NCBI RefSeq assembly: GCF_009674585.1
Contig: NZ_WKJP01000005.1
Coordinates: 1-64,000, forward strand
Direction: 5' to 3'
DNA length: 64,000 nt
Source: Haloferax marinisediminis
GTDB lineage: Archaea > Halobacteriota > Halobacteria > Halobacteriales > Haloferacaceae
Positions 19,133-21,782 of this stretch are shown here, one piece after another (the first letter of the stretch is position 1; the number at the start of each line of letters is the position of its first letter). The notes under the pieces are model-generated. The model was given only the letters and a program-made list of their open reading frames with translations. It ran no database searches and had not been told where the DNA came from. The position numbers and the translations under genes were made by a program.

Positions 19133-20105
19133 TCTCGGTGGACGGCAAGGGTCCACCCGTGGGTGGGAAAATATAGAAATCAGGGGTTACAGCAGTTGCT
19201 TATTGGTTCTAAACCGTTCTAGAAATGTTCGGACTCAACGAGCTTTCGTGCGAAAGTCCGAGAGTCTGTATGACACTTTTTCAGCGTGTTGGCCACAGAG
19301 TTACCTCTCGATAAGAGCGATTTTGATTCTACACCCATGAAATTCCCCGGAAGGTAGCCCCCAAATCGATGGTCAAATGAGGTTGTTCTCCATTAGCCGA
19401 CAAAAGCCTCGGTCTCCATCCCAGAGAGACAACCTTCGTTTCACGTCGATAACGACGCCAGAGAGACCTCACGAGCGTCAAAACGTAGAAAGAGGAATTG
19501 TGGAAATGGGCACTTTGAACAGTCATCAATCCACTCAATAGAGGCAATATCGGAATTCGAAATCGGAGGATACACCCCACCAACGTTGGGGTGTACTAAG
19601 GAATCAGCGTTTTTAGAAGACATATCCAGGAGCTTCGTCGAGGCCAATTCCACCTCCGATGGACGCCATCCGAAGAATCGTTTCACAGGGTAGCAGGTCT
19701 CTCGTGGGCACCAGCAAGCGAATTTGAATTACCAAAATGCCGAATACAAGAGGCCAATAGTGGCTCGGTTACATCCCTGGTGTGGGTCCGATTCGAGTAC
19801 ACCCTTGCGGGGAAAATGCGTGGGTGTACACCCCTGTAGACCAAGGGTGTAGGGCCCGAGAGCCAGTACAACTGTGAATTCAGGGGTGTAGAATCGCCCC
19901 AATTTTGGCCAAGGGTGTACCGGTCAAATCGGCCATTAGTATCAGAATGGAATCTGTATTCGATTAGAAAATCTCTAAGCATCTAACAGAAGGGTGGTGA
20001 AAAACACTATTCCAACCTGCATCATCGTCGCCAGACCACCGCTAGCGAACAGCCAGAATCAGTTGCGTTCTGGAGACTCACTTCAAGACGGAAGAGATGT
20101 CAAGA
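19133..20105. other. Lower-GC gap rich in short repeats, no convincing gene
   Basis: About 970 bases with clearly more A and T than the surrounding genes. Reading frames of 80-100 codons exist on the minus strand (19329-19583, 19441-19686, 19683-19982) but match no family I know and lack acidic halophile composition. The stretch carries the GGGTGTA motif cluster listed separately. It could be a regulatory or replication-type region, or the decayed remains of an inserted element. Confidence 0.5.
19330..19919. repeat. Cluster of nine GGGTGTA/TACACCC motifs
   Basis: Exact copies: TACACCC at 19330, 19571, 19798 and 19827; GGGTGTA at 19589, 19822, 19845, 19884 and 19913. Six lie within 122 bases (19798-19919). 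Two pairs form palindromes: arms TACACCCCA and TGGGGTGTA at 19571-19595, and the 12-base GGGTGTACACCC at 19822-19833. The density and mixed orientation look like binding sites for one protein. Confidence 0.7.
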
Positions 20106-21782
20106 CTATAGTTCGGCCGCTTCAGTGTTTTCGGCGTCCTCACCCTCTTTCGAAGCCGTGCTGGATGCGGATTCTTCGGTATCTGAGTGTCCTCCGGCAT
20201 CGTCAGCCTCCGTTCGATCGTCCATCATACCGGGGAGCTGGATTGCTTGACTGAGGTTACTACGCCACACCTTTCCGGTTTCGACGTCGTCTCGAATCTC
20301 CGATATTTCGCTGGTGAGTTTGTCGACCTGCGCGTCAAGTTTCCACTCGGAGACGAGTCGCTGGTCGAGTTCGGTGAGACGCTCTTCGAACACCGCTTCG
20401 GTTACCAGACTGTCTTCGATGGATTCGACCTGCGCTTCGATGGTCTGGATAGCATCTTTCGACGCAGTCAGAGCCGATTCGAGCTGTTCGATGTCGTCGC
20501 GCATCTCGGCCGTCTCAGTCTGCAGGCCATCGATGACCTGTTCAGCGGTCCCGTTTTCGTCGAGGAACTCTTCGAGGGCTTTCGTGTACGCTGCGAGGTT
20601 GTCGACGCGGTTCTGGACGTGACTGAGTCGTGCGTCCAGCGACGTCGGCGCCGAAGTTCCCAACGAGTCACGCAGGACTGCCAACTCGTCGTCGGAGAGG
20701 TCCCGACTCGAGAGTTCCTCCACGAGAGCGTCGACGATACTTTCGACCTCAGACGCGTCGTGTTCTGCAGGTTCAGATTCGTCGGTGGCGCTCACTTCGG
20801 AAGTCGGTGCGTCGGCGTCCTCCGCCTCGGATTCGGCTGTGTCGACATCGTCTTCGACAACCTCAGCTGAATCAACCTCACCGTCTTCGTCGATATCGGG
20901 AGTCTCGACGTCTACAGATTCCCCGTCGGGTTCGTCGCTACCGTGGTCCGCTTCTTCTGCGGCGTCCGTGAGCTCCTCAGATTCCTCGTCGACTGCCGTC
21001 GAATCACTGTTGTCGGGACTGAGTGTGTCAGTCTCGACGACTGGTTCAGCGGAATCAGACGTCGAAGCTTCAACGGATGAGTCAGCGTCGCCCTCTGTTG
21101 GGTCAGCGAGTTCTAGAGAACCGTCGTTGGCGCTAGGACCGTCGTCGCGCTCAGCAGCGTTCTGTGATTTCGACCCGACGAACTGGATGTCCGACGAGAT
21201 GTCCCTATCTCTCCCTGTCCGACTCGTACTCCAACTCCCGGACGTAGACCGAAGGTCTTCGACGCGTGGAATGCGGCCTTCGAAGTCGTCCCCTGGCTTG
21301 AACGTGGTCTCTTGTGCTGTGGTTTCGTCGTCGGGTTCGCTGTTCTCCGCGTTGTCGTTCGTCATAGTAAGTAAGTCGTCGCTGTCGGTCGTTGGTTCGT
21401 CACCAGCAGGGTCGATTTCGACCCCCACTTCGGTGAGAAATGATTCGAGGCTGCTCTGAGACAGGCCCTTTATTCCGTAGAGAGTGAACGCCTCTCCTTC
21501 GGGAGCGAGTCGGTCGGTGTAGACGAACGCGCCATCGTCGGTCTTCGTCCACTTGTCGCCACCGTACTTTGGGTGTGGTCCGAGATTCTCCATCGGGAAG
21601 TCCGATGGGACGGATTCGACCATCCGAAGCCGGACGGCGTCGTCTCTGTCCGACGATATTTCGAACCGGACGACCGAGAGTCCCTCACCGTTCGCCCACA
21701 CCGACTTTTCGACAGTGATACCGCGGATAGCGGTCGTGAACTTCTCGCTGACGCGCTCCATCTCACGGAAGAGTGGCGTCAT
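20106..21782 (-). CDS. Large acidic protein with C-terminal coiled coil, unknown function
   Basis: 558 residues. An N-terminal globular domain (about 1-125, MTPLFREMERVSEKFTTAIR then GEGLSVVRFEISSD and a HPKYGGDKWTK segment) is followed by a very acidic, Ser/Asp/Glu-rich low-complexity stretch (about 130-350). A helical coiled coil follows (about 380-500, LDARLSHVQNRVDNLAAYTKA onward), then a short acidic tail. There is no signal peptide or membrane segment. The layout suggests a structural or scaffold protein. Its start overlaps the stop of the 139-residue gene upstream by 4 bases, so the two form an operon. I do not recognise the family. Confidence 0.75.
   Translation of the reverse strand: MTPLFREMERVSEKFTTAIRGITVEKSVWANGEGLSVVRFEISSDRDDAVRLRMVESVPSDFPMENLGPHPKYGGDKWTKTDDGAFVYTDRLAPEGEAFTLYGIKGLSQSSLESFLTEVGVEIDPAGDEPTTDSDDLLTMTNDNAENSEPDDETTAQETTFKPGDDFEGRIPRVEDLRSTSGSWSTSRTGRDRDISSDIQFVGSKSQNAAERDDGPSANDGSLELADPTEGDADSSVEASTSDSAEPVVETDTLSPDNSDSTAVDEESEELTDAAEEADHGSDEPDGESVDVETPDIDEDGEVDSAEVVEDDVDTAESEAEDADAPTSEVSATDESEPAEHDASEVESIVDALVEELSSRDLSDDELAVLRDSLGTSAPTSLDARLSHVQNRVDNLAAYTKALEEFLDENGTAEQVIDGLQTETAEMRDDIEQLESALTASKDAIQTIEAQVESIEDSLVTEAVFEERLTELDQRLVSEWKLDAQVDKLTSEISEIRDDVETGKVWRSNLSQAIQLPGMMDDRTEADDAGGHSDTEESASSTASKEGEDAENTEAAEL

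Follow-up and report, generated by a model that had tools for sequence, protein, structure and literature searches.

Iteron-type plasmid origins and copy-control regions carry short repeated words beside a replication-protein gene. The array described here, which lies in an intergenic gap of a 64,000-nucleotide stretch of Haloferax marinisediminis DNA (the window), is like iterons in that the words occur in both orientations and, in its complete form, next to a replication-protein gene; arrays that stand alone ('solo' copies) could be decoys. It differs from iterons in that the neighboring gene encodes a PrimPol beside type IV secretion (T4SS) genes and not a Rep protein, in having two inverted pairs spaced a constant 254 bp apart, and in its many solo copies. 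It can be compared with bacterial origins of transfer (oriT) where, as at 19 of 24 PrimPol loci of other haloarchaea, a T4SS coupling gene lies on one side and the primase-type gene on the other, which is not the case for the solo copy in the window; solo copies would resemble elements that borrow the transfer system of a helper (PMC11389934; PMC5704250). Unlike the bacterial case, archaeal conjugative plasmids have no known relaxase (PMC9905601).

Replication origins of the Orc1/Cdc6 type, with their ORB repeats (PMC3528665), are likewise intergenic and built of inverted G-rich repeats, whereas the array has neither a cognate orc gene nor an AT-rich unwinding stretch. The PATEs and MITEs of haloarchaea (PMC3119063) are also non-coding, dispersed, some hundred bases long and palindromic. 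However, pairs A and B of the array are internal, its motif columns are constrained and its full form belongs to a PrimPol gene; unlike in MITEs, its two ends have just a 7-bp word in common. The closest enzyme is the NrS-1 polymerase, a related HBD-type PrimPol for which a short recognition sequence on both strands has been proposed as an origin (PMC7102993). The array differs in having 8–10 words, and outside Haloferax in a word that varies between near-identical PrimPols. No prior description of the element was found in the literature outside subscription journals.

In the window, nine exact copies of the word GGGTGTA were found, at 19330, 19571, 19798 and 19827 on the minus strand (read as TACACCC) and at 19589, 19822, 19845, 19884 and 19913 on the plus strand. 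All stand where the initial annotation had placed them, in both orientations and with six of the nine in the 122 bases from 19798 to 19919. From outermost to outermost word the element spans 590 bp (19330–19919; this and the following features are given on the plus strand). The left site (19330–19354) has TACACCC and, 8 bp on, CCCCGGAA (consensus CCCGCAA over 16 copies). At 241 bp from it lies inverted pair A (19571–19595), 25 bp of the form TACACCC-N11-GGGTGTA in the context CGATACACCCCACYAACG...GGGTGTACCGG, and 256 bp from pair A lies the equally long pair B of the same form (19827–19851). Site C (19798–19814), which is TACACCC plus TTGCGGGGAA, precedes pair B by 29 bp. Right site 1, GGGTGTAGAA (19884–19890), begins 57 bp after the start of pair B, and right site 2 (19913–19919) follows 29 bp further on. 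What had been described as two clean palindromes is better described as these two 25-bp inverted pairs together with a perfect 12-bp palindrome, GGGTGTACACCC (19822–19833), which is common to a subset of copies. No convincing gene overlaps the array, in agreement with the earlier reading of the gap as gene-free.

The word is strongly enriched here. The 64 kb window holds 19 matches, whereas dinucleotide shuffles predict 3.7 and not one shuffle in 100 reached 19; roughly 0.03 words would therefore be expected in 590 bp, in keeping with the earlier estimate of less than one by chance in 600 bases. Over the whole genome the single word is near background, since it occurs 328 times against 235 for a reversed control word. 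In contrast, the 11 genomic occurrences of the paired form, TACACCC-N11-GGGTGTA, all fall within six copies of the element, and its reversed control is absent. Thus the paired motif did not prove common when counted genome-wide; a common motif would have spoken against the cluster being special.

We compared the window's own genome (G000) and other members of a set of 15 Haloferax genomes. A sequence search with the stretch returned a second full-length copy on another replicon of G000 (G000:C4:254631-255235; 80% identity over 605 bp, window 19326–19930) and further partial matches elsewhere in that genome; genomes sampled from other genera gave no match. A profile made from 16 copies gave 28 matches, each with E ≤ 1.6e-19 and most over nearly the whole length; these 28 copies lie in 13 of the 15 genomes, six of them in G000, and the window match covers 9325–9937 of L056, which is 19324–19936 of the window. 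Among named matches to the cluster pattern all were Haloferax, except for isolated words in two bacterial metagenome bins, and the named plasmids gave no DNA match to the element. The phage records held no similar DNA, the exact cluster pattern was absent from IMG/VR, and a shorter pattern reached three viral contigs with one or two isolated words each, so a viral origin was rejected. An RNA feature was rejected as well, with no Rfam match over the stretch.

The plan of the element is constant while its spacers drift: left site, pair A, site C, pair B and two right sites follow one another in the 27 measurable copies. Pair A is 252–257 bp from pair B in all 27, and site C stands 29 bp before pair B in 26 of them. 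Right site 1 lies 57–60 bp from pair B, with right site 2 a further 28–30 bp on in most copies. The distance from the left site to pair A ranges from 216 to 265 bp and falls mostly into the classes 239–243, 252–255 and 262–265 bp. These classes differ by about one helical turn, a reading that is only suggestive because the copies are related.

In its complete form the array is followed by a PrimPol gene. At G000:C1:130k and in G004, G007 and G010, the array stops on its right side ~50–60 bp before the ATG of a protein of ~420 aa, in a single orientation and register. This protein contains the HBD domain of NrS-1 polymerase (PF22763), and its PrimPol domain was recognized by eye, from motifs that resemble DxD and SGTGYH. 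A fifth PrimPol, at G001:C27, is preceded by a degenerate array with the same positions. Around these genes are found a TrwB/TraG-type coupling protein, TrbL_3 (VirB6) and a TraG P-loop ATPase, as well as an Orc-type protein, a family-B polymerase, an ArdC/M78-like protein and TFIIB, although the full set was not seen in each element. We call the T4SS elements conjugation-type from their gene content alone; no tyrosine integrase (PF00589) was found within the PrimPol elements searched, and the loci scanned showed no tRNA target. In the Haloferax elements PrimPol lies between the array and the T4SS genes, which are at a distance of several kb. The left end of the array faces different neighbor genes across genomes, and it therefore appears to mark the edge of a conjugation-type element that has integrated.

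The spacings of the window copy are those of the PrimPol-linked copies. However, beyond right site 2, where complete elements have the PrimPol ATG, the window copy has nothing: no PF22763 gene directly follows, and it is by sequence only that the copy is counted as a solo member. G013 has an intact array and no PF22763 gene. Two solo copies (G001 L057 and G005 L065) retain decayed PrimPol starts in register, and hence some solo copies, at least, are leftovers of complete elements. The suspicion that the window cluster is the end of a decayed mobile element comes close in so far as it looks like a solo copy of a region from conjugation-type elements, although no PrimPol remnant was found beside it.

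Solo copies are constrained at their sites. When five solo copies that are orthologous at one locus are aligned, the invariant columns number 54 of 56 within the motifs, 346 of 532 in the rest of the element and 84 of 179 in the flanks. The motif mask was shifted circularly 587 times, and no shift reached the invariance of the motifs. Gene conversion between copies could mimic such constraint.

A comparable arrangement recurs outside the Haloferax set. At 19 of 24 PrimPol loci an ORF for a T4SS coupling or TraM-recognition protein ends 310–470 bp upstream of PrimPol, and at 14 of those 19 the 350 bp before the gene contain a repeated 8-mer (p ≤ 0.015 against Markov shuffles; ~0.3 loci expected). 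Named examples are Haloferax lucentense pSVX82-3, Halorussus limi and DL31 phalar01. The words of the non-Haloferax arrays differ from GGGTGTA and include GTCCAnGC, TGTTCAGG, TTACGGCA and TGTTCCACCCA. One locus of another family, L158, has pair A in common with Haloferax (E 2.6e-8), its left module matching weakly (E 0.29). Near-identical PrimPols outside Haloferax can be accompanied by different words, and the word does not follow the tree of PrimPols. Since the word does not track the enzyme, PrimPol is probably not its sole reader, and the difference between near-identical PrimPols implies either another protein that binds the word or selection for incompatibility or immunity. In pSVX82-3 the orc1/cdc6 and ParA genes lie ~13 kb from the array, so that a role in transfer is at least as likely as one in vegetative replication. 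An exact search of the same loci (L158–L181) also showed a box, CCAACTA(G/A)TATA, 137–160 bp upstream of PrimPol at 10 of 24, followed by a GGG..CCC inverted stretch; the two are probably the PrimPol promoter and leader.

In the complete arrangement the array directly precedes PrimPol, on plasmids with the T4SS coupling gene on its other side. We hold with moderate confidence that the window array is a solo copy of the putative initiation or control region, an origin of transfer or of replication, of PrimPol-T4SS mobile elements. In the mechanism we propose, a protein encoded by the element would bind the 7-bp words, as dimers on the 25-bp pairs and singly on the other sites, and the fixed spacings would allow all sites to be gathered in one looped nucleoprotein complex. 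From this complex PrimPol would start DNA synthesis for transfer or replication, and the PrimPol gene would itself be controlled. Solo copies, which keep the sites and have no PrimPol, would serve as orphan start sites or decoys. Direct reading of the word by PrimPol is possible, given that NrS-1 polymerase requires a recognition sequence of 8 nt to make primers (PMC7102993), and is not preferred because the word switches between near-identical PrimPols. Archaeal conjugative plasmids carry no recognizable relaxase (PMC9905601; PMC3158045), and for this reason membership among oriTs cannot be claimed; the best-supported claim is limited to an array that would act in the manner of a transfer or replication origin. 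Of the replication- or partition-type site first suggested, the replication half gains from the array's place before a PrimPol replication gene elsewhere, and nothing points to partition. A bolder version, which we consider unlikely, would make the array an archaeal oriT that operates without a recognizable relaxase, PrimPol and the putative word-binding protein starting transfer-strand synthesis; solo copies, dispersed on the chromosomes and megaplasmids of Haloferax, would then let T4SS elements mobilize host DNA, including gene islands between two copies in the same orientation.

In the window, an HVO_A0563_N + HTH_10 regulator (PF24280, PF04967; 18482–19132, plus strand) and an acidic coiled-coil protein (20106–21782, minus strand; an ORF with weak coiled-coil matches only) both end towards the array, which lies 3' of the two stop codons, and in G010 the same pair is separated by a gap of ~100 bp with no array. 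Convergent genes and an array-free G010 pair argue that it is not a promoter or hub for its neighbors. A regulatory hub for the coiled-coil operon, as the initial annotation proposed, or for the hut regulator, has proximity in its favor and is extremely improbable, the more so as other copies have other neighbors in either orientation. At a UDP-glucose dehydrogenase-like (UGD-like) locus, G003, G014 and G005 carry the array and G001, G000, G013 and G010 lack it. Neighbor genes and orientation vary from locus to locus, and judged from such sequence comparisons the array is an insertion and not a control region of a neighbor. Conservation in relatives fails at the window place, where the copy is absent, and holds for the element at other places. 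In favor of an Orc1/Cdc6-dependent origin with ORB-type repeats are the inverted G-rich repeats, the G-string known from haloarchaeal ORBs (PMC3528665) and a copy that in G006 and G007 precedes an Orc-type gene by 75 bp. However, G013 has an 84% identical Orc without the array, eight other orc loci of G000 have none, and the element contains no AT-rich stretch (GC is flat at 0.49–0.63 along 16 aligned copies), all of which makes this reading very improbable.

An inserted array might also be a non-autonomous transposable element, its outer words recognized by a transposase supplied in trans, with MITE-like spread. The 80% identity over 605 bp between the window copy and the one at C4:254k, whose flanks are unrelated, would fit this, as would boundaries near the outermost words (at the Orc locus homology restarts within ~8 bp of the leftmost one) and loci that are empty in relatives. 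Yet the terminal repeat is no clearer than 7 bp, internal sites are conserved as much as the ends, the inserted stretches are longer than the element, and no convincing exact target duplication was seen at the window, UGD-like and Orc loci; we regard such an element as quite improbable. Possible, though rather unlikely, is an array that acts only as an operator: a repressor encoded by the element would control the PrimPol or transfer genes and confer immunity or incompatibility, no DNA synthesis would start there, and solo copies would be retained because they titrate or block incoming elements. Different words on near-identical PrimPols are what repressor-operator or incompatibility switching would give, solo copies are constrained with no adjacent PrimPol, and a promoter-like box follows the array at 10 of 24 non-Haloferax loci. 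In contrast, a span of ~600 bp with pair A 254 bp from pair B exceeds the need of a simple operator, and pair A and the left site are far from the promoter.

An array that works as an initiation region would bear on how archaeal conjugative elements mark their DNA and start transfer, an open question (PMC9905601; PMC3158045) for which it offers a concrete candidate for the signal so far missing from archaeal conjugation. A cis region between the T4SS coupling gene and PrimPol recurs across haloarchaea with lineage-specific words and solo copies. In Haloferax it is a defined fragment of ~600 bp, open to assays of transfer, replication and protein binding in an archaeon with good genetic tools, and, if solo copies act, it would have a bearing on gene exchange in Haloferax genomes.

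Several smaller observations concern the surroundings of individual copies. Just left of the window element, at 19203–19252, lies a second dispersed repeat, TTGGTTCTAAACCGTTCTAGAAatGTtCGGACtCaACGaG, possibly a remnant of an IS end or of a PATE-like element. Several Haloferax genomes have relatives of it, which in G008 form pairs ~100 bp apart and in G010 lie close to an integrase. Of the six element copies in G000, the degenerate one (C1:449k, L052) is ~1 kb from a tyrosine-recombinase gene at C1:447476-448003. Full copies follow glmM in G000 and G005, while in G010 a short cluster remnant follows it (L130 12401–12477; G010:C1:2375.3k) and the PrimPol element is on its other side. Copies in the same orientation flank 13 kb in G000 (C4:254.9k and 268.3k) and 17 kb in G003 (C2:609.7k and 626.7k), and the 17 kb stretch resembles, by the genes of H. 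volcanii, the N-glycosylation (agl) island. Recombination between direct copies could move islands flanked in this way. Two copies of G005 (L067 and L068) are found beside runs of type IV pilin-like genes, and other copies are near surface-glycan genes.
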